DNA of 19,098 bases from Hyphomicrobiales bacterium (GTDB lineage: Bacteria > Pseudomonadota > Alphaproteobacteria > Rhizobiales > Beijerinckiaceae). The translations under genes were made by a program, and so were the position numbers. Location: positions 1 through 19,098 of the forward strand of contig JAQGKN010000631.1 in the NCBI GenBank assembly GCA_028290085.1, given 5' to 3'. This document shows, in pieces, positions 1,666 to 16,270 of this stretch. Within the stretch, counting starts at the first letter, position 1. Every line of letters starts with the position of its first letter. Under the pieces are notes generated by a model, which was given only the letters and a program-made list of their open reading frames with translations, ran no database searches and was not told the DNA's origin.

Positions 1666-1684
1666 AATCTCACGATATGAGATT
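1666..1684. promoter_or_regulatory. Inverted repeat AATCTCA-N5-TGAGATT, candidate operator
   Basis: This is a perfect 7-base dyad with a 5-base spacer (arms 1666-1672 and 1678-1684), 12 bases after the rsh stop codon. Its right arm overlaps the first two bases of a TTGACA hexamer at 1683-1688. The position suggests an operator for the oxygenase genes. As RNA the hairpin is AU-rich with no trailing U run, so it would be a poor terminator for rsh. Which regulator binds is unknown. The symmetric pairs do not give a T-N11-A LysR box. Confidence 0.4.
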
Positions 1685-1710
1685 GACACCCCAGCCGGGC
1701 AGCTTAGAAA
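1683..1710 (+). promoter_or_regulatory. Candidate sigma-70 promoter for the oxygenase genes
   Basis: A perfect TTGACA (1683-1688) is followed after 16 bases by TAGAAA (1705-1710), a 4-of-6 match to TATAAT. It lies 37 bases upstream of the start codon at 1747, in the only gap between rsh and the catabolic genes. Alphaproteobacterial promoters generally keep the -35 better than the -10, which fits. The overlap with the dyad at 1666-1684 suggests regulated initiation. There is no experimental support. Confidence 0.4.
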
Positions 1711-1746
1711 ATCGACCCCGACAAGCGCTTCACAAGAGGTCACCAG

Positions 1747-3024
1747 ATGCCCCGTTCCTATGTCATCGACGATCCCGAGAAGGGCGTATTCCTTCTCGAT
1801 CGCGAAGTTCACGTCTCCGAGGAAGTGCTGCGCGAGGAGATGCGCAAGATCTTCGCCAAGTGCTGGATCTATGTGGGTCACGGCTCCGAGCTGAAGAAGC
1901 CCGGCGACTTCCTCACCCGCCGCGTCGCTGGCCGCCCCGTGATCTTCGTGCGCGACCAGAAGGGCGAGGTGCAGTGCCATTTCAACACCTGCCGCCATCG
2001 CGGCGCGCTGGTCTGCGCGGACCGCGCGGGCAATGCCCGGCGCTTCTTCTGCGTCTACCACGGCTGGATCTACGGCAATGACGGCAAGCTGAACCGCGTA
2101 CCCGGTGACGAGGCCTACACGGCCGCCTTCGACAAGGAAGAGCTCGCCCTCAAGAAGCCGGCCAAGTTCGAAAATTATCGCGACTTCTGGTTCATGTCGC
2201 TCGATCCTGAAATCGTGCCCCTGGAGGAATATCTGGGCCGCACAACCGAATATCTCGATCTGGTCATCGACCAGTCGCCGTCGAACCAGATGGAAATTCT
2301 CCCCGGCACGCAGGAATACGACGTCGGCGCCAACTGGAAGCTGATGGTCGAGAACAGCGTCGACGACTATCATCTGCCCTCGACCCACGCGACCTGGCTG
2401 AACTTCATGGCCAATTCCGGCGTCAAGGTCGAGCCGCCCAAGGAGAAGGGCCTCGTCCTGCCCACCAAGGGCTACGCGGTCGATCTCGAAAACGGTCACT
2501 TCACGACCGACAACGTCAACTTCCGCGGCCGTCCCGTCGCCAAGTGGATTTCCCTCTATGGCGACGCCGCCAAGGGCGAGATCGAGGAAATCCGCAAGGA
2601 GCTGGTCGAGCGTCTGGGCGAGGAGCGCGCAACGCGCGTGGCCGACACCAACCGCAACCTCGTCATCTTCCCGAACCTCGTCATCAACGACGGCTCGTCG
2701 GTCACCGTCCGTACCTTCTATCCCGAAGGCGTCGGCCGCATGCATGTGACGGCCTGGGCGCTTGGCCCGGTCGAGGAAACCGAGAATGCGCGTGCGCGCC
2801 GCCTCGATGCCTTCCTCACCTTCTACGGCCCGGGCGGCTTCGCGACGCCCGACGACGTGGAGGCGCTGGAACTCGTGCAGCAGGGCCTTGCCAACTGGTC
2901 GGACGACCGCTGGTCGGAAATGTCCCGCGGCATGGGCCGTGAAGGCGAACAGCTCAATTCCGACGAACACCACCTGCGCATCTTCTGGCGCCATTGGAAC
3001 GCAATGATGGGAGCAGAGGCATGA
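1747..3024 (+). CDS. Rieske aromatic ring-hydroxylating oxygenase, alpha (large) subunit
   Basis: Catalytic subunit of a ring-hydroxylating dioxygenase that adds O2 to an aromatic ring using electrons delivered by a separate reductase or ferredoxin. The 425 residues match the family's usual length. The N-terminal Rieske [2Fe-2S] site is Cys82-x-His84-x17-Cys102-x2-His105 (CRHRG ... CVYHGW). The C-terminal mononuclear iron site has Asp206 (bridging), His209 and His214 (ENSVDDYHLPSTH), with the third ligand Asp369 or Asp370 in GPGGFATPDDVEALE. The start is supported by GAGGT at 1736-1740, six bases upstream of ATG. The stop overlaps the beta-subunit start (ATGA), so the two are translationally coupled. 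The neighbouring decarboxylase-family protein hints at a carboxylated aromatic substrate, but the substrate cannot be read from the sequence. No ferredoxin or reductase gene lies nearby. Confidence 0.93.
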   Translation: MPRSYVIDDPEKGVFLLDREVHVSEEVLREEMRKIFAKCWIYVGHGSELKKPGDFLTRRVAGRPVIFVRDQKGEVQCHFNTCRHRGALVCADRAGNARRFFCVYHGWIYGNDGKLNRVPGDEAYTAAFDKEELALKKPAKFENYRDFWFMSLDPEIVPLEEYLGRTTEYLDLVIDQSPSNQMEILPGTQEYDVGANWKLMVENSVDDYHLPSTHATWLNFMANSGVKVEPPKEKGLVLPTKGYAVDLENGHFTTDNVNFRGRPVAKWISLYGDAAKGEIEEIRKELVERLGEERATRVADTNRNLVIFPNLVINDGSSVTVRTFYPEGVGRMHVTAWALGPVEETENARARRLDAFLTFYGPGGFATPDDVEALELVQQGLANWSDDRWSEMSRGMGREGEQLNSDEHHLRIFWRHWNAMMGAEA

Positions 3025-3521
3025 CGCTCCAGATGGCACAGGCCGTGACCCGCGCCGAGGTCGAGGACTTCCTCTTTCACGAGGCAGCACTGCTGGATGA
3101 ATGGAAGCTCGACGAGTGGCAGACGCTGCTCGCCGACGACGCGACCTATCTGATCCCGCCCAACGACGATCTCGATGGCGACTATCGCAAGTCGCTATTC
3201 ATCATCGCTGATGATCGCGAGCGCATCCGCCAGCGCATCATCCGCGTGCTGGACCCCAACTGCCACGCCGAACATCCGAAGTCGCGCACGCAGCGCATCG
3301 TCGGCAATTTGCGGCTGCTGGGGCAGGAGGACGACATCACCATCGTGGCCGCCAACTTCATCTGCTACCGCTATCGCCGCTACGAACGCGTCGGCCAATA
3401 TGTCGGCAACTACCGATATCGTTTGCAGCGTCATGAAGGCTCGTTCCTCATCAAGGAGAAGCGCGTCTTCATTCAGGCGAACGAACTCGGCCAGCTCGGC
3501 TCCGTCAGCATCATCCTGTAA
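3021..3521 (+). CDS. Aromatic ring-hydroxylating dioxygenase, beta (small) subunit
   Basis: Non-catalytic small subunit (166 aa, SnoaL/NTF2-like fold) that assembles with the alpha subunit, usually as an alpha3beta3 hexamer. Family traits visible: an N-terminal helix with VEDFLFHEAALLDEWKLDEW, the strand segment LLADDATYLIPP, IADDRERIRQRIIRVLD, the HPKSRTQRIVGN segment and the C-terminal strand FLIKEKRVFI. ATG at 3021 is chosen over an in-frame TTG at 2994 because it overlaps the alpha stop as ATGA and has GGGAG about eight bases upstream (3009-3013). Having a beta subunit separates this enzyme from the alpha-only phthalate 4,5-dioxygenases and points towards benzoate-, terephthalate- or cumate-type enzymes. 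That placement is from memory of the families, not an alignment. Confidence 0.9.
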   Translation: MTLQMAQAVTRAEVEDFLFHEAALLDEWKLDEWQTLLADDATYLIPPNDDLDGDYRKSLFIIADDRERIRQRIIRVLDPNCHAEHPKSRTQRIVGNLRLLGQEDDITIVAANFICYRYRRYERVGQYVGNYRYRLQRHEGSFLIKEKRVFIQANELGQLGSVSIIL

Positions 3522-3533
3522 GGCCAAGCCCCC

Positions 3534-4520
3534 ATGGCAGACCTGAAACTCACACTGGCCTGCTGGGATTATGATCGCACGCGCCCGCTCATCGACGGGC
3601 GCGTGAAGGCGCAGGGCATCGATCTCGATGTGAAGATGCTGCGGCCGCGCGAGATGTTCCCGCGCATGCTGGAGAAGCAGGAGTTCCACGCCTCGGAGCT
3701 CTCGCTTGCCTCCTATGTGAGCCTGAAGGGCAGGGGCGATTGCCCCTTCCAGGCGCTGCCGGTGGCGGTGTCCAAGATCTTCCGCCATTCCTGCATCTAC
3801 GTGCGGCCTGGCGCCAACATCAAGAAGCCGGAAGACCTGCGCGGTAAGCGCGTCGGCACCACTCAATATGGTTCGACGGCCGCCGTCTTCATGAAGGGCA
3901 TGATCCAGGACGAATACGGCGTCGCCCCGCATGAGATGCACTGGTTCATGGGCGGTCTCGACGCTCCGACGCAGACGCCGCTGATCCCGCTCACCGTGCC
4001 TAACAATGTGCGGCTGGATTTCCTGCCCGACGGCAAGACGCTGGAGGCGATGATGGAAGCGGGCGAACTCGACGCGCTCTTCTCGATCTACCTGCCCAAG
4101 ATTTTTCTCGCGGGCTCGCCGAACTGCAAGCGCCTTTTCCCGAACTTCAAGGAAGTCGAGAAGGACTATTACAAGCGCACGCACATCTTCCCGATCATGC
4201 ACACGATCGCGTTGCGCTCCGACGTGTTGCGCGACGAGCCCTGGGTTGCCGCGAGCCTCTACAAGGCGCTTTGCGAAGCCCGCGACATCGCGGTGGAAGG
4301 CCTCTACGACACCGACGCTTTGCGGCTGGCACTTCCCTGGCTGCTCGATCACGTGGAGGAGGCGTGGTCCGTCTTCGGGCACGATTTCTGGGCCTATGGG
4401 CTGGAAGCCAACCGCCCGACGCTGGCCGCGCTCGGCCGTTATGTCTACGAACAGGGCTTTTCGCCCCGCGTCGTGCTACCTGAGGAAATCTTCCTGCCGG
4501 GCCTCGATACCCCGGCGTAG
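3534..4520 (+). CDS. 4,5-dihydroxyphthalate decarboxylase-family protein (Pht5-like; often annotated as an ABC substrate-binding protein)
   Basis: Cytoplasmic protein of 328 residues with the type II periplasmic-binding-protein fold and no signal peptide, which favours an enzyme over a transport protein. The family's characterised member decarboxylates 4,5-dihydroxyphthalate to protocatechuate. Recognisable blocks are ACWDYDRTRPLIDGRV (9-24), the ELSLASYVSLKGRGD segment (55-69), FRHSCIYVRPGANIKKPEDL (83-102), GKRVGTTQYGSTAAVF (104-119) and FPIMHTIALRSDVL (219-232). It follows the beta subunit by 12 bases with a weak ribosome site, so it is probably in the same operon. The family is large and mostly uncharacterised, so the exact substrate is open. 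Its pairing with a ring hydroxylase supports decarboxylation of a dihydroxylated or diol aromatic acid. Confidence 0.8.
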   Translation: MADLKLTLACWDYDRTRPLIDGRVKAQGIDLDVKMLRPREMFPRMLEKQEFHASELSLASYVSLKGRGDCPFQALPVAVSKIFRHSCIYVRPGANIKKPEDLRGKRVGTTQYGSTAAVFMKGMIQDEYGVAPHEMHWFMGGLDAPTQTPLIPLTVPNNVRLDFLPDGKTLEAMMEAGELDALFSIYLPKIFLAGSPNCKRLFPNFKEVEKDYYKRTHIFPIMHTIALRSDVLRDEPWVAASLYKALCEARDIAVEGLYDTDALRLALPWLLDHVEEAWSVFGHDFWAYGLEANRPTLAALGRYVYEQGFSPRVVLPEEIFLPGLDTPA

Positions 4521-4544
4521 CTGTCACGCCGCCGGTGCACCGTC

Positions 4545-5498
4545 ATGGCCCTCAAGATCAGTCTGCGCCAGCTCGAATACTTCAATCAGGTTGCCCGCGC
4601 CGGTTCCGTCCGCAAGGCCGCCGAAGCGCTCAATGTCGCGCAACCGGGCGTCACACGCACCATCAAGGATCTGGAAGATCTCCTTGGCGTCGAGCTGTTC
4701 GCGCGCGCCAGCAACGGCGTCACGCTGACCAAGTTCGGGCAGATCCTGCTTCGGCATTCCAATGCGGCGCTGGATGAAATCCAGTCCGGGCTCGATGAGC
4801 TCGACGCGGTGAAGGACGCGGGCGAGGGGCAAATCGTGCTCGCCGGGCCGACCGTCAGCATGTCGCGCATTCTTCCGCGTGCCATCGCGCGGCTGAAAAA
4901 CCGCTGGCCCATGGTCAAGGTCTCCCTGCATTCGGGCACCAATGCGCAGGCGCTGGCCGCCCTTCGGGATGGGGAAGCCGACATCTTCTTCGGGCGGCGC
5001 GGCACGCCCGACCAGATGCAGGACCTGCATTTCGAGCCGCTGTTTCAGGACCGGCTCGTGATCGTCGCGGGCGCGCAGAACCCGCTGACCGAGCATCCCG
5101 CTTACGAGATCGCCGATCTCATCGAACTGCCCTGGATCATCCCCTCCATCGACTCGAGCTTCAAATCCTTCGTCGATCAGGTTTTCCGGACCAACGATCT
5201 GGCGCCACCGCGCAATTGTGTGGAGATGAGCTTCGGCCCGTCCATGTGGGTCTATCTGGAAGAGACGGGCGCCATCGCGGCCATGCCGAGCAATCTGGTG
5301 GCCGACGACATCCAGGCGGGCCGCATCAGCATCCTCAAGACCGACGACAAATGGGTGCTGCCGGAGTTCGGTATCGCGCTCAGGGGCGCCTCCCGGTCCA
5401 ACCGTATGACGGGCGCAATGGTGCAGGAGCTTCGCCGCGTCGCCCTCCAGCGCAAGCAGCAGCTCAACCACGTCGTGACCGCGTTGCGCCTGGGCTGA
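4545..5498 (+). CDS. LysR-family transcriptional regulator
   Basis: DNA-binding regulator of 317 residues, the usual LysR length. The winged helix-turn-helix occupies about 6-66 (LRQLEYFNQVARAGSVRKAA, then NVAQPGVTRTIKDLEDLLGV, then LFARASNGVTLTKFG), followed by a linker helix and an effector-binding domain at about 95-300 (GQIVLAGPTVSMSR, FFGRRGTP, LVIVAGAQNPL). It starts 24 bases after the decarboxylase-like gene on the same strand and has no clear ribosome site, so its translation may be coupled. LysR genes are more often divergent from their targets, so the same-strand, promoter-distal position is slightly unusual and implies autoregulation with the operon. Its likely targets are the oxygenase genes upstream and the binding-protein gene downstream. 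The ligand is unknown. Confidence 0.92.
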   Translation: MALKISLRQLEYFNQVARAGSVRKAAEALNVAQPGVTRTIKDLEDLLGVELFARASNGVTLTKFGQILLRHSNAALDEIQSGLDELDAVKDAGEGQIVLAGPTVSMSRILPRAIARLKNRWPMVKVSLHSGTNAQALAALRDGEADIFFGRRGTPDQMQDLHFEPLFQDRLVIVAGAQNPLTEHPAYEIADLIELPWIIPSIDSSFKSFVDQVFRTNDLAPPRNCVEMSFGPSMWVYLEETGAIAAMPSNLVADDIQAGRISILKTDDKWVLPEFGIALRGASRSNRMTGAMVQELRRVALQRKQQLNHVVTALRLG

Positions 5499-5617
5499 CA
5501 GCCAATTTAGTTATGGCCGCCGTCGATTTTGGTATCACCGCGCCTCCCGGTCGCCGCGCTATGCTCGCGGCAACAATGGATCGATCCAAAGATGATCGGC
5601 CAATCGGGGAGGAAACC

Positions 5618-6694
5618 ATGTTCGATCGCGATAGCGAAGAGAGCTGCCCTGGGGCAGGCGCGCCCTCGCGCCGCGAGGCGCTGGCGCTTCTGGCCGGAGG
5701 TCTGGCAGGCCTGGCATCCACGGGCGCATCCGCGCAGGCAGACGATTTTTATCGCGGCCGGAACATCGATCTGATCGTCGGCTTTCCGCCCGGCGGCAGT
5801 AACAATCTCTACGCGCGCGTTCTGGCGACACATCTGGGCAAGCACATCCCCGGTAACCCGGGAATCATCGTCCGCAACATGCCGGGCGCTGGCAGCATGA
5901 CCGCGGCGGCCCATGTCTTCAATTCGGCGGCGCAGGACGGCACGACGCTGGCCATCGTCGCGCCGACCCTGCCGCTCAACGAGCGGCTGACGCCCGGCGG
6001 GTTGCGCTTCAAATCCTCCGAATTCGGCTGGGTCGGCCGCATCAATTCGCTCGTCAACGTCATCTTCGTGCGTGGCGACTCGGTGAAGACCCTGGGTGAC
6101 GTGCTCACGACACCGGTGCGGCTGTCGGCGACGGGGGCAGGCTCCGCCATCACCGTCTACCCCAACGCGCTCAACTACATTCTGGGCACGAAGTTCGACA
6201 TCGTGCGCGGCTATTCGGGCTCGATGGAGGGCATGCTCGCGGTCGACCGTCGCGAGGTGGATGGCCATTGCACCGGCTGGGACACACTGAAGACGAGCCA
6301 CCCCGACTGGATCGCGGGAAAGAGCATCAGTCTCCTCGTCCAGTTCGCCTCCAAGCGCCACCCCGAACTCAAGGACGTGCCGACCGCCCTCGAATTCGCG
6401 AAAACCCCGCAGCAGGAACAGATGCTTCAGGCCATCGTCAACGCGGCTGAAGTCGGCACGTCCTTCTTCACGACGCCCAACGTGCCGCCGCAGCGCCTCG
6501 CGCTGCTCCAGGGTGCCTTCAGCCGCTGCATGGAAGACCGCGAATTCCTCGCGGATATCGAAAAGCTGCAGATCGGCATCGATCCGATGGACGGCAAGCG
6601 CCTCGGTGAAATCGTCGCTGACGTCGCCAAGGTCGCCGATGACCTCGTGCCCGGCCTTCAGCAGGCGACCCTCATGGTCGCAGGCAGGAACTGA
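5618..6694 (+). CDS. Tripartite tricarboxylate transporter substrate-binding protein (TctC/Bug family)
   Basis: Periplasmic binding protein for carboxylated compounds, normally the capture component of a TctABC-type transporter. ATG at 5618 is chosen because GGGGAGGAA (5606-5614) lies just upstream and the export signal follows directly. The longer open frame back to 5216 only overlaps lysR. The 358-residue product has a twin-arginine-like signal (PSRREALALLAGGLAG) ending near ASAQA-DD, about residue 41. Bug-family blocks are LIVGFPPGGSNNLYAR and IVRNMPGAGSMTAAAHVF in the first lobe and SATGAGSAITVYPNALNYI in the second. Terephthalate uptake in other bacteria uses a protein of this family (TphC), which is suggestive next to a ring hydroxylase. 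No tctA or tctB membrane gene is in the window, so it must share a permease encoded elsewhere or act as a sensor. Confidence 0.88.
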   Translation: MFDRDSEESCPGAGAPSRREALALLAGGLAGLASTGASAQADDFYRGRNIDLIVGFPPGGSNNLYARVLATHLGKHIPGNPGIIVRNMPGAGSMTAAAHVFNSAAQDGTTLAIVAPTLPLNERLTPGGLRFKSSEFGWVGRINSLVNVIFVRGDSVKTLGDVLTTPVRLSATGAGSAITVYPNALNYILGTKFDIVRGYSGSMEGMLAVDRREVDGHCTGWDTLKTSHPDWIAGKSISLLVQFASKRHPELKDVPTALEFAKTPQQEQMLQAIVNAAEVGTSFFTTPNVPPQRLALLQGAFSRCMEDREFLADIEKLQIGIDPMDGKRLGEIVADVAKVADDLVPGLQQATLMVAGRN

Positions 6695-6738
6695 AAACCT
6701 TCACGCCTCAGAGCAGTCGAACGTAACGGAGCTATCCC

Positions 6739-7806
6739 ATGACCGAGCAGCCCAAGACACGTGAGTTCATGACAACATGGCACACCTCCGCCCGGTCCTA
6801 TCTTCCGGCCTGGGCGAAGCGCAACAAGTCGAGCCTGATGGAATCGGGCAAGAGCACGCGCGCGCTGCCCATGTTCCGCGCCTTCGATCTGCTGGAAAAG
6901 CCCAATCAGCAGATCGCTTTGCTGATCAATGCCGACCACCGCATCGGTGTCGAGAGCGTCTGCGGCGCGCAGCAGGAGTTCGTCCGTCACGTCGACTTCG
7001 ACACAGTCTATTTTCAGTTCGCCGGTGAGACGACCATCGAGACCGAATTCGGCGCATATTCCATGATGCCAGGCGACATCATGCAAATCCCCGAGGGCAT
7101 CGCGCACCGCAGCGCTGGCTCCGCCGACAGCCTGCGCTGGTTTGCGTTCGTGAATGCGCCCTTCACGCATTTCATGACCAACGAGGACGAGGTCAGCACG
7201 ACCCGCTTCAAGGTGACCCGCGCCAATGGCCCGGACTGGAAAATCCCCGCCGACCGCCAGACCTCGCCACGCGATCGCGTTGTCGAGCGGATGGTCTGCT
7301 GGGACGACAAGCCCGACGATCTCTCGCTGTTCAACCGCGATTACGCCGATCTCGTGCCCGCAAGCAGCACCAGCCCGCGCGAGGCCAAGAGCGGTATTCT
7401 CAAGCTGCGCGCCTTCGACCTGTTCAAGGAAATCGCCGGCACCAGCGGCGAGCCCAAGCCCGTGATGCGCGGCAAGCATCTGGAGATCAAGGTCTACAAT
7501 ATCATCGGCGAGCAGTTTGCTTTCCACCGCGCGCTGCGCAGCGAAGAGGTCCGCATCCAGTTTCGCGGCAATGCGCTCGACCAGTCCGAGACTGGCAACG
7601 CCGATACGGCGCCTGGCACGGTGACCGTCATTCCGCGCGGCATCGGCCACAGCGTCATCACGGTGCCCGCAGATTGTCCGGAATTCCTGCGGCTGAATTT
7701 TTACAGCGAGCTGCCGTGGTCCTATCCCCACGACGTGACGAAGCACCACTTCGACAGTCACTTCGAGATTGCGACCGAAGTCGTCGTAAAGGCAGCCTGG
7801 CGCTAA
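6739..7806 (+). CDS. Bicupin protein, homogentisate 1,2-dioxygenase-like; possible non-heme iron ring-cleavage enzyme
   Basis: Predicted soluble protein of 355 residues with two RmlC-like cupin domains, about 75-145 and 245-325. Cupin motif 2 is present in both (GDIMQIPEGIAH 112-123; GTVTVIPRGIGH 293-304). The second domain also carries His263-x5-Glu269 (FHRALRSE), matching the spacing of the iron ligands in homogentisate 1,2-dioxygenase (HRNxMSE), with His304 as the likely third ligand. The first domain has His84 and His123 but no acidic residue at the matching place, so it probably binds no metal. ACGGAG stands seven bases before the ATG, and the gene follows the binding protein by 44 bases. 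The protein is shorter than true homogentisate dioxygenases (about 440 residues), so a different ring-cleavage or isomerase role is possible. Cupin fold: confident. Reaction: inferred. Confidence 0.7.
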   Translation: MTEQPKTREFMTTWHTSARSYLPAWAKRNKSSLMESGKSTRALPMFRAFDLLEKPNQQIALLINADHRIGVESVCGAQQEFVRHVDFDTVYFQFAGETTIETEFGAYSMMPGDIMQIPEGIAHRSAGSADSLRWFAFVNAPFTHFMTNEDEVSTTRFKVTRANGPDWKIPADRQTSPRDRVVERMVCWDDKPDDLSLFNRDYADLVPASSTSPREAKSGILKLRAFDLFKEIAGTSGEPKPVMRGKHLEIKVYNIIGEQFAFHRALRSEEVRIQFRGNALDQSETGNADTAPGTVTVIPRGIGHSVITVPADCPEFLRLNFYSELPWSYPHDVTKHHFDSHFEIATEVVVKAAWR

Positions 7807-7837
7807 GGCCGAAATGGCAAATACGCTCGCCTGTTGC

Positions 7838-7919
7838 CGTCATTGCTAGCGGAGCGAAGCAATCCAGAGTGGTCTCGCAGCCTCTGGATTGCTGCATCGC
7901 TTTGCTCTTCGCAATGACG
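7838..7919. repeat. Interspersed palindromic repeat, 82 bases
   Basis: A nested inverted repeat fills most of the gap between the bicupin and aldo/keto reductase genes. The outer arms are CGTCATTGC (7838-7846) and GCAATGACG (7911-7919). The inner arms are GCAATCCAGAG (7859-7869) and CTCTGGATTGC (7882-7892), around a 12-base loop. Between them are partly matching AGCGGAGCGAAG-like segments of unequal length. The sequence resembles the multicopy CGTCATTGCGAGCG... palindromes that I recall from Bradyrhizobium, Rhodopseudomonas and relatives. It is probably a small non-autonomous element, and its transcript would form a stable hairpin between two genes. Confidence 0.8.
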
Positions 7920-7949
7920 TGCTGCGACCAAACACGGAGATGAATTCCC

Positions 7950-8942
7950 ATGGAAAACGCGGCACGTCCGGCACGCGCCATCGGTGGAAGCGGCCTGCGC
8001 GCCTTTCCTCTAGGCCTCGGCTGCGCGTCACTTTCAGGCGCATACGGCCCATCCGACGAGGCTGACGCGCTCCGCCTTCTCCACATGGCCTGCGAGCGCG
8101 GCGTGACGCTTTACGACACCTCCGACAAATACGGCTGGGGCCACAACGAGGAGCTGCTCGCCAAGGCCTTCGAGGGCGCGGGCACCAGCGTCGTCATCGC
8201 ATCGAAATTCGGCAACATGGCGGGTCGCGACGGCCGCATCGCCGATGGCACGCCCGAAAACGTCTTCGCGTCCTGCGAGGCCAGCTTGAAGCGCCTGCGG
8301 CGCGACGCCATTGACCTCTATTACATTCACCGTATCGACCCGAGCGTGCCCATCGAGGAGACGGTCGGCGCCATGTCGCGGCTCGTCGAGCAGGGCAAGG
8401 TTCTGGCGCTCGGCATCTGCGAGGCCAACCCACAGACGCTGCGCCGCGCGCACGCGGTGCATCCGATGAGCGCGATTCAGAGCGAATATTCGATTCTCTA
8501 CCGCGCAGAGGCCGAAGAGGTGCGCCAGACCTCGCGTGAACTCGGCATCAGCTTCGTGGCATACGCCCCGCTGGGACGCGGCCTGTTGACCGGTGCCGTG
8601 GCTCCGGGATCGCTCGGCGAAAAGGACGAACGTCTGCGCCATCCGCGTTTCGCGCCCGAAAATCTCGCGCGCAATCTGGCGCTGGTGGCCTGCCTCGAAG
8701 AGGTCGCGCAGGCGCGCAGCTGCACGTCGAGCCAGATCTCGCTGGCCTGGCTGCTGGAGCAGGGGGACGATGTGATCCCCATCCCCGGCACCAAGACGAT
8801 GAGCCGCCTGATCGAGAATATCGAGGCCGCGTCCATCATCCTGTCGGCAGCCGAGATTGCCTTCATCGCGGCCTCGATCCCTGCCGATGCGGCAGCGGGA
8901 TTGCGATACCGTGCCGAGCACATGAAGAACATGTTTCTTTAG
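7950..8942 (+). CDS. Aldo/keto reductase
   Basis: NAD(P)H-dependent oxidoreductase of 330 residues with a TIM-barrel fold, reducing a carbonyl or oxidising an alcohol. The catalytic tetrad is complete: Asp56 and Tyr61 (YDTSDKYGWG), Lys86 (IASKFG) and His127 (YYIHRID). The cofactor-binding segments are YAPLGRGLLTG (205-215) and IPGTKTMSRLIENI (278-291). ATG at 7950 is preceded by GGAG (7935-7938), ten bases away. It is separated from the bicupin by the palindromic repeat and is followed after 63 bases by a hydrolase gene. In a catabolic cluster it could oxidise or reduce a ring-derived intermediate, but the family is broad and the substrate is unknown. Confidence 0.9.
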   Translation: MENAARPARAIGGSGLRAFPLGLGCASLSGAYGPSDEADALRLLHMACERGVTLYDTSDKYGWGHNEELLAKAFEGAGTSVVIASKFGNMAGRDGRIADGTPENVFASCEASLKRLRRDAIDLYYIHRIDPSVPIEETVGAMSRLVEQGKVLALGICEANPQTLRRAHAVHPMSAIQSEYSILYRAEAEEVRQTSRELGISFVAYAPLGRGLLTGAVAPGSLGEKDERLRHPRFAPENLARNLALVACLEEVAQARSCTSSQISLAWLLEQGDDVIPIPGTKTMSRLIENIEAASIILSAAEIAFIAASIPADAAAGLRYRAEHMKNMFL

Positions 8943-9005
8943 GCGCGATTGAGTGGCATCAGGTCCACACGCGCGCAGACAATAGACGAAAATCAGGGAG
9001 CGGAA

Positions 9006-9908
9006 ATGGCAGAGCAGATCGTCGAATTCGTCTCCGATGGGCTGAAGCTCATCGGCACCGTCAGCACACCGGAGGGCCTGTCACCCGACGACAAACGCCC
9101 GGCCTTCATCGTGCTGCACGGCTTCGGCAGCACGCGCCATGCCGGCAATGTCGTCACGCCCTGCGCGATGCTCAACAAGCTCGGCTATGTGACGCTGCGC
9201 TTCGACATGCGCGGCTGCGGCGAGAGCGAAGGCGAGCGCGGCCGGCTGATCTGCCTCGAACAGGTCACCGACACGCGCAACGCCCTGACGATGCTTCAGC
9301 AGCACGCCAACATCGATCCGGCGCGCATCGGCGTCATGGGCAGCAGTTTCGGCGCCGCGGTCGCGGTCTATACGGCTGGGTCCGACAAGCGCGTCGGGGC
9401 TTGCGTCTCTGCTTCTGGTTGGGGCAATGGCGCCCTCAAATTCGAAGGTCAGCACTCTGGTCCCGGCGAGTTCGAGCGCTTCAAGAAAATGCTCGCCGAC
9501 GGCAAGGCGCATCGCGAGAAGACCGGGCAGGCCATGATGGTTTCGCGCTACGATATCGTGCCGATCCCCGTGCACCTGCGCGGCAACGTGCTCAAAGGCT
9601 CCATCATCGACATGCCCGTCGATACCGCCCAAAGCATGTACGACTTCACGGCCGAGGACATGATTGCCGAAATCGCGCCGCGGCCGGTGCTGCTGATGCA
9701 CAGCGCCGTTGATTCCGTGACGCCGACCGTTCAGACGATCCGCATGTTCGAGCGTTCGAAATCACCGACCGAGCTGCACCTGTTCTCGGGCACCGATCAC
9801 TTCATGTTCGCCGAGCACAACACGCGCGTCCATCAGGTCGTCACCGCCTGGCTCGAGGCCTTCTTCCCCGTGAGCGGTGAGCCGGCCCCGATGGTCGCAG
9901 GGCACTGA
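9006..9908 (+). CDS. Alpha/beta hydrolase
   Basis: Serine hydrolase of 300 residues, predicted cytoplasmic (no signal peptide). The oxyanion segment is LHGFGSTRH (37-45), the nucleophile elbow GSSFG has Ser114, the acid is probably Asp236 (HSAVDSVTP), and the base is His265 (GTDHFMF). DMRGCGESEG (67-76) is typical of the esterase/acylaminoacyl-peptidase-like branch. ATG at 9006 is preferred over an in-frame TTG at 8949 because AGGGAG (8995-9000) sits five bases before it. In this neighbourhood it may hydrolyse an ester of the aromatic substrate or a ring-cleavage product, which is inference from context only. Confidence 0.88.
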   Translation: MAEQIVEFVSDGLKLIGTVSTPEGLSPDDKRPAFIVLHGFGSTRHAGNVVTPCAMLNKLGYVTLRFDMRGCGESEGERGRLICLEQVTDTRNALTMLQQHANIDPARIGVMGSSFGAAVAVYTAGSDKRVGACVSASGWGNGALKFEGQHSGPGEFERFKKMLADGKAHREKTGQAMMVSRYDIVPIPVHLRGNVLKGSIIDMPVDTAQSMYDFTAEDMIAEIAPRPVLLMHSAVDSVTPTVQTIRMFERSKSPTELHLFSGTDHFMFAEHNTRVHQVVTAWLEAFFPVSGEPAPMVAGH

Positions 9909-9914
9909 CTTATC

Positions 9915-9949
9915 TGGCGCCGCATCCGCCATTGACGGATGTGGCGCCA
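9915..9949. terminator. Strong 14-base hairpin after the hydrolase gene
   Basis: TGGCGCCGCATCCG (9915-9928) pairs with CGGATGTGGCGCCA (9936-9949) around a seven-base loop. The one imperfect pair is G-T, a wobble in RNA. It begins seven bases after the hydrolase stop codon and ends 68 bases before the next gene. No U tract follows, so it is not a textbook intrinsic terminator. It could act as a Rho-associated terminator, an mRNA-stabilising 3' end or an attenuating hairpin for the binding-protein genes. Confidence 0.5.
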
Positions 9950-10017
9950 ACCCCAATGCTGAAGACCTGAAGGACGTCGCCGGGTTCTCCCGCAATGAAC
10001 GCCCAATGGGAGGAATT

Positions 10018-11040
10018 ATGTCTTTGAAGATCATTCTCGCCGCGCTGACGCTCGGCCTCTCCGCAGGTGCGACATCGGCACTGGCCGCCGATCAGGCGAC
10101 AATCGATGCCGCCCGCAAAGAGGGCGAACTCACCTGGTACACGACCGAAATCGTCAACCAGCACGTGCGCCCGGCCGCAGCCGCCTTCGAGAAGAAATAC
10201 GGCGTGAAGGTCAATTACGACCGCGCCAATCCGACCTATATCGAGTTGCGCGTCATCACCGAGGCCAATGCCGGAAAGATCCAGGCAGACGTCGTCGACG
10301 GAACCGCCACCAGCGTGATGCTCCGCCGTGAAGGTCACATCCTGCAATGGGTGCCGGAAAACAATTTCGACAAGCAGTTCGTCGATCCCGAGGGTTATTG
10401 GATCACCACCAATGCCTACGTGCTGACGCCCGGTTTCAACACCGAGCTCGTGCCCAAGGGCACTGAGCCCAGGAACTATCAAGACCTGCTCGATCCCAAG
10501 TGGAAGGGCAAGATGGTCTGGAACGCGACGCCTGTGACATCGGCGGGGCCGGGCTTTGTTGGCACGGTGCTGACCTCGATGGGCGAGGAAAAGGGCATGG
10601 CCTATTTGCGCGCGCTCGCGAAGCAGAATGTCGCCGCCGTCTCAAGCTCAGGCCGGCAGGTGCTCGATCAGGTGATCGCGGGCGAATATTCCATCGCGCT
10701 GCAGATCTTCAACAACCATGCATGGATCAGCGCGCAGAAGGGTGCACCGGTGAGCTGGATTCCGATGGAGCCGTCGCTCGGCGTTCTCTCCGTCATGTCG
10801 GTTGTGAAAACCTCGGCGCATATGAACGCGGCCAAGCTCTTCGTCGAATTCCTGACGTCTGAAGAGGGCCAGATCCTCATGCGGGATGCGGGCGAATTAC
10901 CCGTCCATCCCAAAGTGCCTCCGGCAGATCCGACGTTGCGTCCCGACGGCGTGCATTTCAAGGCACTTTTCCTCAGCCCCGAGCAGATCGACAAGTCAAT
11001 GCCGTCTTGGGCCAAGACCTTCAACGAAATTTTCCGTTGA
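10018..11040 (+). CDS. ABC-type extracellular solute-binding protein (iron(III)/family 1-like)
   Basis: Periplasmic binding protein of 340 residues. A Sec signal peptide (hydrophobic ILAALTLGLSAGATSALAA, cleavage near residue 23) follows ATG at 10018, which has GGGAGGAA at 10008-10015. The longer frame upstream would bury the signal, so it was rejected. The mature protein begins with ADQATIDAARKEGELTWYTT and has DLLDPKWKGKMVW and SMGEEKGMAYLRALAKQN, typical of the group annotated as iron(III) or family-1 solute-binding proteins. Many of these bind organic anions or opines rather than iron, so the ligand is not called. No permease or ATPase gene is next to it. The next gene is a diverged paralogue. 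Confidence 0.87.
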   Translation: MSLKIILAALTLGLSAGATSALAADQATIDAARKEGELTWYTTEIVNQHVRPAAAAFEKKYGVKVNYDRANPTYIELRVITEANAGKIQADVVDGTATSVMLRREGHILQWVPENNFDKQFVDPEGYWITTNAYVLTPGFNTELVPKGTEPRNYQDLLDPKWKGKMVWNATPVTSAGPGFVGTVLTSMGEEKGMAYLRALAKQNVAAVSSSGRQVLDQVIAGEYSIALQIFNNHAWISAQKGAPVSWIPMEPSLGVLSVMSVVKTSAHMNAAKLFVEFLTSEEGQILMRDAGELPVHPKVPPADPTLRPDGVHFKALFLSPEQIDKSMPSWAKTFNEIFR

Positions 11041-11105
11041 TAGGCCAGGCTTCATACGGAACACTCAAGGTGTGTGGAACGGCAGCACGGTTACGCGGGA
11101 GCAAC

Positions 11106-12161
11106 ATGGTGGATATATCAAGGCGCCTACTGTTTGCTCTCACGCTGGGCGCGGCTCTCGTCCCAGGGGCCGCGCAGGCGCAAACCGTTGATTTCTCCGC
11201 GATGGCACTGGACGCCACACCGGACCGGGTCGCGCGCATTCAAAAAGCGGCCGAAGCCGAAGGCATCTTGATCGTCTACGGCTCGGCGCCCATGGAGGAC
11301 ATGTCGACGATTTTCTCGGCCTTCGAGGCGAAATATCACATCAAGGTGCGCTATTGGCGCGCCGGCCCGCAGGAGGTCATTCGTCGCGCCGAGACCGAAT
11401 ATCGGGCTGGCCGCTACGAGGCTGACATCGTGCAGGCCAACGGCCCGACGATGGAGGCCTTGCGACGCGAAAATCTGTTCCAGAAAGTATTGTCGAAGGC
11501 ACAGGACGACCTGCTGCCGCAGGCCGTGCCGGACCACCATGAATGGGTGGGCGAGCGGCTGAACATCGTCATCGGCGCTTACAACACGAAGTCTGTTCCG
11601 GCTGCGAGCGTGCCTGCGACCTACGAAGACTTCAGCGATCCCAGCTGGAAAGGGAAACTCGCCGTCGAGGCGACGGATTATGACTGGTTTGCCACGGTCG
11701 TCTCCGCCATGGGCGAGCAAAAGGGCATTGCGACCTTCCGCGAAATAGCATCGAAGAATGGCCTGTCTGTACGCAAGGGGCACACGCTGCTCACCGCGCT
11801 GGTCGCAGCGGGCGAAGTGCCGGTCTCGCTCAATGTCTTCACCTACAAGGTGGATCAATTGGTGAAAGAGGGCGCACCCATAGCGCCGCTGCTCATTCCC
11901 CCAGCTGTCGGGCGCGTGAACGGCATTGCCGCCATGCGACGCCCCTCGCACCCAAATGCGGCTCTGCTCTATTACGAGTTTATGCTGACCGATGCGCAGC
12001 ACATACTGATGGCGCGAGACTTCACGCCGACGAACCAGCGCGTGCAGGCACTGCCCGCCGGGCTCGTGCTTCAATTTGTCGACTCGGCCAAGTTGCTCGA
12101 CGAGGGCGATAAGTGGACGAAGCTCTGGAAAGAAATAACGAGCCTTCGCCCCGCGAATTAG
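11106..12161 (+). CDS. ABC-type extracellular solute-binding protein, diverged tandem paralogue
   Basis: Second periplasmic binding protein, 351 residues, 65 bases after the first. ATG at 11106 is preceded by GGGAG (11097-11101). The signal peptide carries a twin-arginine-like SRRLLF followed by a hydrophobic core and AAQA-QT (about residue 25). Homology to the preceding gene shows in matching blocks: DPSWKGKLAV for DPKWKGKMVW, AMGEQKGIATFREIASKNG for SMGEEKGMAYLRALAKQN, and HPNAALLYYEFMLTDAQHILMARD for the corresponding HMNAAKLFVEF block. Identity between the two is clearly low, so the duplication is old or the two were acquired separately. The gene ends 21 bases before the convergent purF end. 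Its partner permease is not in the window and its ligand is unknown. Confidence 0.86.
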   Translation: MVDISRRLLFALTLGAALVPGAAQAQTVDFSAMALDATPDRVARIQKAAEAEGILIVYGSAPMEDMSTIFSAFEAKYHIKVRYWRAGPQEVIRRAETEYRAGRYEADIVQANGPTMEALRRENLFQKVLSKAQDDLLPQAVPDHHEWVGERLNIVIGAYNTKSVPAASVPATYEDFSDPSWKGKLAVEATDYDWFATVVSAMGEQKGIATFREIASKNGLSVRKGHTLLTALVAAGEVPVSLNVFTYKVDQLVKEGAPIAPLLIPPAVGRVNGIAAMRRPSHPNAALLYYEFMLTDAQHILMARDFTPTNQRVQALPAGLVLQFVDSAKLLDEGDKWTKLWKEITSLRPAN

Positions 12162-12168
12162 CGGGGCG
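12147..12168. terminator. GC-rich hairpin between convergent genes, candidate bidirectional terminator
   Basis: CGCCCCGC (12147-12154) pairs perfectly with GCGGGGCG (12161-12168) around GAATTA. The hairpin includes the last codons and the TAG stop of the binding-protein gene and lies in the short space before the convergent purF stop at 12183. It has no clear T tract on either side, so intrinsic termination would be weak. Confidence 0.45.
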
Positions 12169-12182
12169 GCGGTCGCGCCTGA

Positions 12183-13688
12183 TCAGCCGGTTTCCGCGAG
12201 CAGCGACAGCTGCTGCTTGCCAGTCTCGCCCATGACGTCGGTCAGATGCGTTGGGTAGTCGCCGGTGAAGCAATGATCGGTGAATTGCGGCCTCAGGGCA
12301 TCGCGCTTCTCGTAACCCATGGCGCGGTAGATGCCATCGACAGAAATGAACGCCAGGCTGTCGCAGCCCATATACAGGCGCATTTCTTCGAGCGTGTGCG
12401 TCGCGGCAAGCAGTTTCTCGCGCTCTGGCGTGTCGATGCCGTAATAATCGGGGTGCGTGATTGGCGGCGAGGAAATGCGGAAATGGACTTCCGCCGCACC
12501 GGCTTCGCGCATCATGCGCACGATCTTCAGCGAGGTCGTCCCACGCACTACGGAATCGTCGATGAGGATGACGCGCTTGCCCTCGATGACCGAGCGGTTG
12601 GCGCTGTGCTTCATGCGCACGCCCAGCTCTCGCACCGATTGCGTCGGCTGGATGAAGGTGCTGCCAACTTAATGATTGCGGATGATTCCGAGTTCGAACG
12701 GGATGCCCGACTCGCGCGCATAGCCGATGGCGGCGGGCACGCCGGAATCCGGCACGGGAACGATGACGTCGGCTTCGATACCGGCCTCGCGCGCCAGTTC
12801 CGCGCCCATCCGCTTGCGCACGTCGTAGACGTGGCGACCGTGGACGTAGGAATCGGGACGGGCGAAATAGATATATTCGAAGATGCAGGGACGTGGCGCC
12901 TGCGGAGGGAAGGGCTTGTGGCTTTCGATGCCACTTTCCGAGATCACGACGACCTCGCCATTCTCGATGTCGCGCACGAAACGCGCGCCGATGATGTCGA
13001 GTGCGCAGGTTTCCGACGCCAGGATGTAATGACCGTCGAGTTCGCCGAGAACGAGCGGCCGAATGCCCAGCGGATCGCGCGCGCCCATCATCTTCTTGTT
13101 GGAGAGCGCGACGAGCGAATAGGCGCCTTCGAGATAGCGCAGCGCTTCGATGAAGCGGTCGAGAATGCGCGGCTTGCGGCTGCGGGCCACGAGATGCAGC
13201 ACGACTTCGGTGTCTGACGTGGACTGATAAATAGCACCTTCGCGGATCAAGTCGCGGCGCAGGGTCAGGCCGTTGGTGAGATTGCCGTTATGGGCGACGG
13301 CGAAGCCGCCGGTGTCGAGTTCGGCAAACAGCGGCTGAACGTTGCGAAGAATAGTCTCACCGGTCGTCGAATAGCGCACATGGCCGATCGAGGCGGAGCC
13401 AGGCAGGCGGTCGATGGTCTTGGCCGACGAGAAGTGATCGCCCACGAGGCCGAGCCTGCGTTCCGAGTTGAAGCGCTTGCCATCAAACGCGACGATGCCC
13501 GCTGCTTCCTGTCCGCGATGCTGAAGGGCATGCAGCCCCAGAGCCGTGATGGCCGCAGCTTCCGGATGCCCGAAAATGCCGAAGACTCCGCATTCTTCCC
13601 GAAGGCGATCCGAATCGAGATCCAGATCGTCAATCGCAGCAACGCCGGATCCGGCATGGCCCGATTGGGCCTCGTGAGCGCTCACCAT
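12183..13688 (-). pseudogene. purF: Amidophosphoribosyltransferase purF, interrupted by an in-frame TAA
   Basis: PurF catalyses the first committed step of purine synthesis (PRPP + glutamine to phosphoribosylamine). The start at 13688 follows a strong GGAGGGGAG (13695-13703). A 32-residue leader precedes Cys33 (EECGVFGIFG), the residue exposed by propeptide removal as the glutaminase nucleophile. Other visible blocks are QHRGQEAAGI, GHVRYSTTG, AHNGNLTNG and the PRPP loop VILIDDSVVRGTTS. After GIIRNH, codon 340 is TAA (12671-12669) where homologues have Tyr of the conserved YVGRTFIQP loop. Reading then continues in the same frame for 161 codons (VGSTFIQPTQSVRELGVRMK...) to the natural stop. 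The conserved Arg of that loop is also replaced, by Ser. Total span, 501 sense-length codons, is normal. As written, the gene would yield a protein without its PRPP site. True decay or an assembly error are both possible. A recoded stop is unlikely because TAA ends other genes here. Confidence 0.88.
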
Positions 13689-13774
13689 GGAAGTCTCCCC
13701 TCCGGCCGCGGCCAGGAAGTTGGATGTCGGCGAAAAGCTATAACAGACGCATCGGGTTAGCCCCACGCGTCCTC

Positions 13775-13803
13775 TAGATAGGTAATGTTCGTCCAATTGT
13801 CAC
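13775..13803 (-). promoter_or_regulatory. Candidate purF promoter
   Basis: On the minus strand GTGACA (13803-13798), one mismatch from TTGACA, is followed after 17 bases by TATCTA (13780-13775), which is only a half match to TATAAT. It lies in the 137-base gap between cvpA and purF, about 87 bases upstream of the purF start. It would allow purF to be transcribed separately from cvpA. Confidence 0.3.
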
Positions 13804-13825: not shown

Positions 13826-14464
13826 TCACAAACCACGCGACGCAGGCGACGTGCTGCGATTGGGCGCGCTGGGCGCAGCATCCGTGCGGCGGCCCGGCGC
13901 GGGTGACGGGGCAGGTGACGGCGTCACGTCTTCCGGCGCGGGCTCATCCCCCTTGGGCTTCTTGAACTTGTTGAGGAATGTGCTCTCCGGATCGTCCGGC
14001 AGCATAGCCATCAGCTGGTCGCCGGTGGCCTGAAGCAAAGGCTTCGTGCGCGCGTTCTTCACCCATTCGGGCTGCGACTTATCGGGCACCAGCCAATTGA
14101 AGAACACAAAGGCGACGACACAGAGCAAAAGGCCACGTCCAGCGCCGAAGAGGAAGCCCAGCGAACGGTCGAGCGCACCGACCTTTGAATCGAGAATGGC
14201 GTCGGAAAGACGGACAGTCAGGATCGACACGATGATCAGCGTGACGAAGAAGACAGCACCTGCTGCAACCGCGAGTGCCACCGAGTCCTTCTGGACGTAG
14301 GTCTTCACGAAGGGCAATACGAGCGGGTGAAAATAATAGGCGGCTGCCGCAGCCGCTGCCCACGAACCAATGGCCAGCACTTCACGCGTGAAACCGCGCA
14401 GCATGGACAAAAGCGCCGAAAGCAGCACGACGACGATCAGACCAAGATCTAGATAGGAAGGCAT
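13826..14464 (-). CDS. cvpA: CvpA family membrane protein
   Basis: Inner-membrane protein of 212 residues. In E. coli the homologue is needed for colicin V production and is co-transcribed with purF, and its basic function is still unclear. The start at 14464 (MPSYLDLGLIVVVLLSALLS) matches the family's N terminus. Longer frames begin with an unrelated Arg-rich stretch. Four hydrophobic segments are visible at about 6-22, 28-45, 62-85 and 104-122, with the family motif SMLRGFTREVL after the first. The C-terminal tail from about 165 is rich in Pro, Ala and Ser and probably disordered. The ribosome site is weak (GAGG about 11 bases upstream). Gene order cvpA-purF is the classical one. Confidence 0.9.
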   Translation of the reverse strand: MPSYLDLGLIVVVLLSALLSMLRGFTREVLAIGSWAAAAAAAYYFHPLVLPFVKTYVQKDSVALAVAAGAVFFVTLIIVSILTVRLSDAILDSKVGALDRSLGFLFGAGRGLLLCVVAFVFFNWLVPDKSQPEWVKNARTKPLLQATGDQLMAMLPDDPESTFLNKFKKPKGDEPAPEDVTPSPAPSPAPGRRTDAAPSAPNRSTSPASRGL

Positions 14465-14536
14465 GTGTTCTGGGCCTCGCCGCGAGCGAAAACGATTCGG
14501 GGTCAGCCCCATCCGCACCGCGCTGCGCATTCTATA

Positions 14537-14556
14537 ACGGAGGTGTTTGGCTCCGT
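14537..14556. terminator. Small hairpin between radA and cvpA
   Basis: ACGGAG (14537-14542) pairs with CTCCGT (14551-14556) around eight bases. On the minus strand the hairpin comes 31 bases after the radA stop and is followed by TATAG rather than a T run. It may partly end radA transcripts, so cvpA may have its own promoter. None is obvious in the remaining gap. Confidence 0.25.
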
Positions 14557-14586
14557 CACCCCTGCCGCGGCCGGGGTTCACAAGGT

Positions 14587-16023
14587 TCAGGCCGGAAGGG
14601 CCGCCGTCCGTGAGCGTGAAGGCGCCGCCGTTTCACGCGACGGGCTGCGCGGCACGCCGCCTGCTGCGATATCTGCGACGAGGGCAGAAATGTGCCCGCA
14701 GGCCCGAACCGGGATGGCCGGGCTCTCGCCTTCGCGCGAGGTCGCCGGCGCGACCGCTGCCGCAAAGCCGAGTTTGGCTGCTTCCTTCAGTCGCAACCCG
14801 GTGTGGACAACCGGACGCACCGCGCCAGACAGGCCGAGTTCTCCGAAAAAGACTGTGTCAGGCGGTAGGCGCGCGCCCGTCAGCGACGAGACGAGCGCCG
14901 CCGCCGCCGCGAGATCCGCCGCCGGCTCACCAATTTTCAATCCGCCGGCGACATTGAGATAAACATCGTGTTGCCCGAGCCGAACCCCGGCATGCGCCTC
15001 GAGAACGGCGATGACCATGGACAATCGCGCTGTGTCCCAGCCCACGACAGCCCGGCGCGGGGTGCCGAGCGATGTGGGCGCGACCAGTGCCTGGATCTCC
15101 ACCAGAACCGGACGTGTGCCCTCCATTCCCGCGAAGACGGCTGCGCCGGGCGCCGAGGCATCGCGTCCTGACAGGAACAAAGCGGAGGGATTGGAGACTT
15201 CGCTGAGACCCAAGCCCGTCATTTCGAACACACCGATCTCGTCGGTGGGCCCAAAACGGTTCTTCACAGCGCGAAGAATGCGGAAATGGTGCCCGCCATC
15301 GCCTTCGAACGAGACGACCGCATCGACCATGTGCTCGACGACGCGCGGCCCGGCGATCTGACCGTCCTTGGTGACGTGGCCCACGAGAATGACGGTCGAC
15401 CCGCTGGTTTTGGCATAGCGAATGAGGGCCTGTGCCGAGCCACGTACCTGCGTGACAGTGCCCGGCGTAGCCTCGACCTTGTCGGTCCACATGGTCTGAA
15501 TGGAATCGATGACGACGAGGGCAGGGCGCGGGCCCTGCATGAGCGTCGCCGTAATATCCTCGACACTCGTCTCGGCGGCGAGTTCGACCGGCGTCTTGGC
15601 AAGCCCCAGACGCTCGGCGCGCAGGCGCACCTGTGCCACCGCTTCTTCGCCCGAGATATAGACGACGCGATGGCCCTTGGCGGCCAGCGTCGCGCAGGCC
15701 TGGATCAGGAGCGTCGATTTTCCAATGCCGGGTTCGCCGCCGATGAGAATGACTGAGCCCGGCACAAAGCCGCCGCCGGTCACCCGGTCGAGTTCGCCAA
15801 TACCAGAGACGATGCGCGGAGCAGGCTTGCTTTCGCCTGAGAGTCCTTCCAGCGGGAACACGCGCCCCTTCCGCGCACCGATGGCACCTTGGGCGCCTAT
15901 GCCCGAGGCAGAATTTTCCTCGATGATGCAATTCCATTCGCCACAGGCTTCGCAGCGTCCGACCCATCGCTGGGTGATCGCGCCGCAATTCTGGCAGATG
16001 AACTGAGAGCGTGCCTTCGCCAT
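14587..16023 (-). CDS. radA: DNA repair protein RadA
   Basis: RecA-like ATPase (478 aa) that promotes branch migration and processing of recombination intermediates. Domains in order: N-terminal C4 zinc finger Cys10-x2-Cys13-x10-Cys24-x2-Cys27; Walker A GEPGIGKST (96-104); Walker B region LVVIDSIQTMW (169-179); the RadA signature KNRFG (254-258); and a Lon-protease-like C-terminal domain (about 300-455, with LNVAGGLKIGEPAADLAAAAAL-type sequence). The start at 16023 gives MAKARSQFICQNCG, the usual N terminus. It lies seven bases after the stop of the small upstream gene, so the two are surely co-transcribed. The frame is open further upstream, but that portion overlaps the small gene in another frame. 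Confidence 0.95.
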   Translation of the reverse strand: MAKARSQFICQNCGAITQRWVGRCEACGEWNCIIEENSASGIGAQGAIGARKGRVFPLEGLSGESKPAPRIVSGIGELDRVTGGGFVPGSVILIGGEPGIGKSTLLIQACATLAAKGHRVVYISGEEAVAQVRLRAERLGLAKTPVELAAETSVEDITATLMQGPRPALVVIDSIQTMWTDKVEATPGTVTQVRGSAQALIRYAKTSGSTVILVGHVTKDGQIAGPRVVEHMVDAVVSFEGDGGHHFRILRAVKNRFGPTDEIGVFEMTGLGLSEVSNPSALFLSGRDASAPGAAVFAGMEGTRPVLVEIQALVAPTSLGTPRRAVVGWDTARLSMVIAVLEAHAGVRLGQHDVYLNVAGGLKIGEPAADLAAAAALVSSLTGARLPPDTVFFGELGLSGAVRPVVHTGLRLKEAAKLGFAAAVAPATSREGESPAIPVRACGHISALVADIAAGGVPRSPSRETAAPSRSRTAALPA

Positions 16024-16030
16024 GTGTAAC

Positions 16031-16270
16031 TCAGGCCCCTGAGCAGGAAAGGCGCGGACGATAGGGGCGGCCAATGCCAGCATGCCCAAGATACACGCGC
16101 AATTCGCCGAGCTGGCGCTCCAGCGCAATCTCTGATTCACGCAATTCGTCGAGTGCAGCACGCACCAGGGCTGTCACATCGGCGCAATCGGCCTTGCCAC
16201 GCGCCTTGCTACGCCACTGGGCGCGCGGAGAATTCAGCTCATACGAGAGGGTCTCGGGCGAATCGGACAT
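16031..16270 (-). CDS. Small conserved-looking protein of unknown function between alr and radA
   Basis: A 79-residue product I do not recognise. ATG at 16270 is preferred over one at 16291 because GAGG lies eight bases before it (GAGGTGCAGAAC), while the upstream ATG has none. The N-terminal third is polar and Arg-rich (SPRAQWRSKARGKADCADVT). The middle forms a charged amphipathic helix, ALVRAALDELRESEIALERQ and the next ten or so residues, with a heptad-like leucine pattern that could form a coiled coil. The tail is short and basic. There is no signal peptide or membrane segment. It sits 64 bases after alr and 7 bases before radA in the same direction. Tight spacing, a good ribosome site and typical codon use support a real gene. 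Confidence 0.7.
   Translation of the reverse strand: MSDSPETLSYELNSPRAQWRSKARGKADCADVTALVRAALDELRESEIALERQLGELRVYLGHAGIGRPYRPRLSCSGA

Follow-up and report, generated by a model that had tools for sequence, protein, structure and literature searches.

The stretch of DNA analysed here (the window, 19,098 bases) is one contig of the draft genome of a Hyphomicrobiales bacterium, which comprises 3,527,062 bases in 682 contigs and is 69.62% complete and 0.66% contaminated. Its purF gene, encoding glutamine PRPP amidotransferase (PurF), is broken by a single in-frame TAA, and this raises the question of whether the cells have lost the enzyme, read the codon in an unusual way or have been misrepresented by their draft sequence. 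We give a probability of about 60% to the last of these, namely that the consensus of a fragmentary and probably thinly covered draft is locally wrong at the TAA. The stop in purF is most likely not a new kind of biology, being either such an error or a very recent null allele.

The interrupted purF frame and its genomic setting

The single in-frame TAA described in the original prediction is present at residue 340 of PurF, on the minus strand, and the rest of the frame is open from its ATG to a natural TGA at positions 12185-12183 (Table 1). The locus does not have the uninterrupted frame of a member of the TIGR01134 family; with X written at the stop, its translation matches TIGR01134 positions 1-432 at 498.4 bits, which is above the curated cut-off of 350 bits. 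Scores were also obtained for the first part alone and for the last 150 codons (Table 1). As had been claimed, the part downstream of the stop retains the motif ILIDDSVVRGTT of the PRTase domain, which we take to be the PRPP-binding motif, together with the natural end of the gene. Relatives with solved structures are 1ao0, 1gph, 6lbp and 1ecb, and the alignment of the window protein with the first of these, B. subtilis PurF (1ao0), is gapless around the stop site. Among at least 80 matches listed for the first part, the best-listed named records belong to Beijerinckiaceae and other Hyphomicrobiales, and the closest organism-named homologue among the best 120 of 8,000 scored is PurF from a 'Hyphomicrobiales bacterium' MAG. 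A viral scan gave one distant relative (44%).

Table 1. Positions of purF, its altered codons and the adjacent genes in the window
Feature	Position	Strand	Basis
purF first part, glutaminase domain and start of PRTase domain, 339 codons	12672..13688	minus	ATG at 13688
ORF holding purF first part	12669-13796	minus	TIGR01134 positions 1-304, 344.6 bits
In-frame TAA, residue 340, Tyr in 120/120 homologues	12669..12671	minus	homologue alignment
Ser codon, residue 343, Arg in 120/120 homologues	12660..12662	minus	homologue alignment, relatives' loci
purF second part, putative PRPP-binding motif ILIDDSVVRGTT, TGA end	12183..12668	minus	profile match and ORF list
ORF within purF second part	12183-12635	minus	TIGR01134 positions 317-432, 121.2 bits
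cvpA-like open frame, upstream of purF	13826..14581	minus	ORF list
radA-like gene, open frame	14587..16161	minus	ORF list

Upstream of purF lie two open frames that we take to be cvpA-like and radA-like genes. On its other side, positions 1666-12163 hold a cluster of dioxygenase and substrate-binding-protein genes which matches the nearest genome in our sample (G025) at 79-91%. The counterpart of this cluster in G025 is on contig L333 (C80) and the G025 purF on contig L113 (C112), so the cluster and purF do not have the same arrangement in both drafts. The contig starts inside a RelA/SpoT-family gene (positions 2-1654, TIGR00691 positions 161-686), which is cut by the contig end. An Rfam search of the window gave no match.

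A second purF elsewhere in the genome had been offered as one explanation. A TIGR01134 profile search of the whole genome gave one match, at the window locus itself (498.6 bits, with one internal TAA), and found no second purF in the assembly, which lacks about 30% of the genome. The comparison with sister genomes proposed in the original prediction was made with the same profile on 61 genomes (60 relatives and this draft), and 55 of these gave a score above the cut-off, no fewer than four of the matches being less than full length. Only in this draft does a stop lie inside purF; the other 54 of the 55 genomes are free of one. The remaining six genomes have purF fragments (two) or distant matches only (four). 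With respect to the rest of the purine pathway, purD, purL and purM are present in the draft and contain no internal stops, and purH was not found in it, as can happen in a genome that is about 70% complete.

These observations bear on the main rival reading, which we regard as unlikely yet serious: that the stop is real and marks an allele whose function was lost very recently in the cells sampled, perhaps through a single clustered mutation event. The cells would then use salvaged purines, or depend on another purF lying in the unassembled portion of the genome. The assembly contains the stop and gave no other purF, and the missing purH would be consistent with loss and also with incompleteness. 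Housekeeping genes that have been inactivated recently are intact but for one disabling change, and in this the window purF is like them; it is unlike them in that purD, purL and purM are unbroken here and the stop occurs in no sister genome.

A double change in a conserved motif

According to the original prediction, the stop takes the place of the Tyr that begins a conserved YVGRTF loop. The Tyr is indeed replaced, but the motif does not otherwise stand as described, since it reads *VGSTF (the asterisk being the stop), with Arg343 changed to Ser as well. Both residues are invariant in the homologue alignment (the best 120 of 8,000 scored), and YVGRTF was found in all 30 of the relatives' loci that were read. 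Judged from these alignments, this is not a position that ordinarily varies. What sets the window gene apart from the PurF family is a stop in place of an invariant Tyr, and Ser in place of an invariant Arg, in the flexible-loop motif of the PRTase domain.

The rest of the protein was assessed at 258 near-invariant columns, defined as those with at most one deviating sequence of 121. Window PurF has three unique deviations at these columns (Leu200 to Met, the stop, and Arg343 to Ser), and therefore the gene is conserved apart from the altered patch and one conservative change. By itself the count is unexceptional, as 5 of the 121 sequences have at least three unique deviations; two unique deviations within four columns occur in one of the 120 other homologues. 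A second small cluster of differences is seen at 13086-13091 on the minus strand, where residues 200-201 are Met-Met and the homologues have Leu (120/120) and Ile (115/120).

The purF of G025 is 87.9% identical to that of the window over 1,502 bases. Over 501 codons the two genes show 149 synonymous and 20 non-synonymous differences, with the stop counted among the 20. There is a single base difference in each of codons 340, 341 and 343. These three differences lie within eight bases, each being G or C in G025 and A or T in the window, and the one in codon 341 leaves the amino acid unchanged. A short patch covering codons 340-343 was probably miscalled in the consensus, and the living cells would then probably have an ordinary full-length PurF. 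The loss of two invariant residues within four codons, in a gene that is conserved elsewhere, speaks for such an error.

The altered 19 bases, AATCATTAAGTTGGCAGCA (12658-12676, minus strand), have one mismatch to a sequence that we take to be the end of IS1, and their G025 counterpart has four; this comparison was chosen after the fact. With the mismatch base left open, the 19-base pattern occurs in at least 120 stretches of the viral collection. The 38,160 19-mers of the window (both strands) include two that match an 800-base stretch of contig L129, presumably IS1, with at most one mismatch, and these two may be read as the patch site on each strand. A donor for the patch elsewhere in the organism's own genome was considered and rejected, AAGTTGGCAGCA being found at the purF site only. 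We give only a slight chance to a real break made by a short templated patch, after which the bacterium would lack its only purF and would need purines from neighbours, with gene loss at its first step.

We take YVGRTFI to be residues 329-335 of E. coli PurF, so that the stop would lie inside the flexible loop. According to two papers, this loop spans K326-L350 in E. coli, where I335 and Y74 form a wall of the ammonia channel (PMC7953260), and the PRTase loop closes over the PRPP site (PMC7953260, PMC7056826), a closure that is required for formation of the ammonia channel (PMC7056826). A truncated product, which would lack the remainder of the loop and the PRPP motif, is not expected to synthesise phosphoribosylamine. 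The two parts of PurF might instead act as separate proteins, the second made from an internal start such as the GTG at 12635, which opens a 150-codon ORF containing the PRPP motif. This is extremely unlikely, since no sequence resembling a ribosome-binding site was seen by eye before that GTG, the flexible loop would be cut, and the Ser at 343 would be left unaccounted for.

Isolated stops elsewhere in the draft

A scan for stops with a codon model, which was seeded from nine genes and later retrained on called frames, covered 101 contigs (100 besides the window), with 516,072 bases, 336 called genes and 376,902 coding bases. It gave 30 candidates, and five of these (purF and four others) were confirmed inside genes by comparison with relatives; five is a lower bound, because some of the 30 were judged only by eye. 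Six further candidates were checked with Pfam (contigs L270, L263 twice, L305, L254 and L299); four have domains to one side or to either side of the stop, as at gene ends, and two gave no family match.

All four other interrupted genes, named after their Pfam families, contain TAG. In an acyl-CoA dehydrogenase (L280, position 5474) it stands where the relatives' loci have Tyr in 14 of 14 cases. In a PMT_2 glycosyltransferase (L317, position 7245) the aligned relatives' loci have Tyr in 9 of 12 cases, G025 included, Thr in one and Ala in two, and nine codons after the TAG this gene has Cys for the Trp of G025. A DUF6328 gene (L347, position 599) has TAG where G025, the sole relative found among 45 others, has Gln. 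The fourth, a DPRP photolyase-related gene (L282, positions 951-2420), carries TAG at a codon that is Lys in G025; it is broken a second time near its end, where it lacks one base relative to G025. The frameshift rule in our protein-locus scan flagged nothing, yet it missed this lacking base. One of the three stops that the same scan flagged was rejected, as it lies in a wrong-frame antisense ORF.

Two samples serve for comparison. A scan of G025 (226,023 coding bases, 22 candidates) found, as judged by eye, no isolated stop in an intact gene, and in 450 protein-locus pairs from relatives (131,953 residues, many of the pairs from the purF neighbourhood) the nine stops flagged are all, again by eye, in non-matching tails. 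One G025 candidate (L335, position 16201, minus strand) lies in a gene fragment, GGFYGWP*SYYG, that has several other stops close by and resembles a pseudogene in decay.

With purF left out, four stops in about 125,600 codons of this draft compare with none in about 75,300 codons of G025 (p about 0.15), and with none in about 207,300 codons of G025 and the relatives' loci together (p about 0.02, a value that pools samples scored differently and leaning to essential genes). These values make an excess of stops in the draft suggestive at most. On the codon usage found here 2.80% of random substitutions would give a stop. If random error accounted for all five stops in 125,634 codons, about 180 substitutions would be implied, or near 5 per 10,000 bases. 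Such a rate is high for an assembly and possible where coverage is thin. The isolated stops in four other sampled genes make it more likely that assembly error is general, or that several null alleles have newly arisen, than that the cause is specific to purF.

The same set of stops bears on two explanations in which the codon would be translated. Read-through by a suppressor tRNA or in a leaky context, giving full-length PurF, draws some support from the fact that all five confirmed stops are TAA or TAG and that three of the five stand at Tyr of the relatives, against 17% expected (share 0.166, chance about 0.035). The other two, however, stand at Gln and Lys positions. The draft gave 12 tRNA matches, of which ARAGORN read 11, and no stop-reading anticodon was found among these in a tRNA set that is clearly incomplete (genome 69.6% complete). 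Moreover, TAA and TAG each terminate 47 of the 299 called ORFs. Read-through, which the original prediction had listed unranked beside assembly error and gene loss, would alone be insufficient to restore the motif because Arg343 would still be Ser, and we consider it very unlikely; the other two options are retained.

Reassignment of TAA, or of TAA and TAG, to an amino acid has nothing in its favour except that the frame stays open beyond the stop, and of all the explanations it is the one we find hardly credible. The five in-frame stops stand in place of three different residues (Tyr three times, Gln once and Lys once), where reassignment would call for one, and neither codon is rare at gene ends: the 299 called ORFs, a count that includes interrupted ORFs, end with TGA in 205 cases and with each of the other two at the frequency given above. 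The earlier judgement that reassignment is unlikely, which cited TAA ends at 3519-3521 and 7804-7806, holds on this wider count, and both of those ends are present.

Consensus error or recent null allele

Base-level errors occur in fragmentary draft assemblies, and the present case resembles them in that one draft shows scattered single defects in conserved genes that are intact otherwise. From its contig sizes and completeness, the draft appears to be metagenome-derived; it is presumably thinly covered, and the reads would then lack support for the patch. Isolated in-frame stops in four other genes, one of which also has a missing base, would fit a consensus error in purF. The excess of stops is only suggestive, however, and the rate that it would imply is high for an assembly. 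At the reference-invariant columns of the neighbours of purF on the same contig there are no deviations (radA 234 columns, cvpA 53, 287 in total; the test wanted six references, so dnaB with three, whose query was also out of frame, and alr with five were not counted), which would also speak against frequent error. In addition, very recent null alleles would give an identical sequence picture.

Clustered multi-base mutations do occur in nature, and in a very recent null allele the remainder of purF would not have had time to decay. On the other hand, a real null in purF would need at least four more fresh nulls in a small sample of the genome, or a separate cause for those stops.

If the TAA is a consensus error, auxotrophy should not be inferred from one stop in a fragmentary draft, and checking the same draft for similar isolated stops is a cheap test. 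If it is real, gene loss would have been caught at its first step in an organism auxotrophic for purines, whose group has purF free of stops in 54 of the 54 other genomes over the cut-off.
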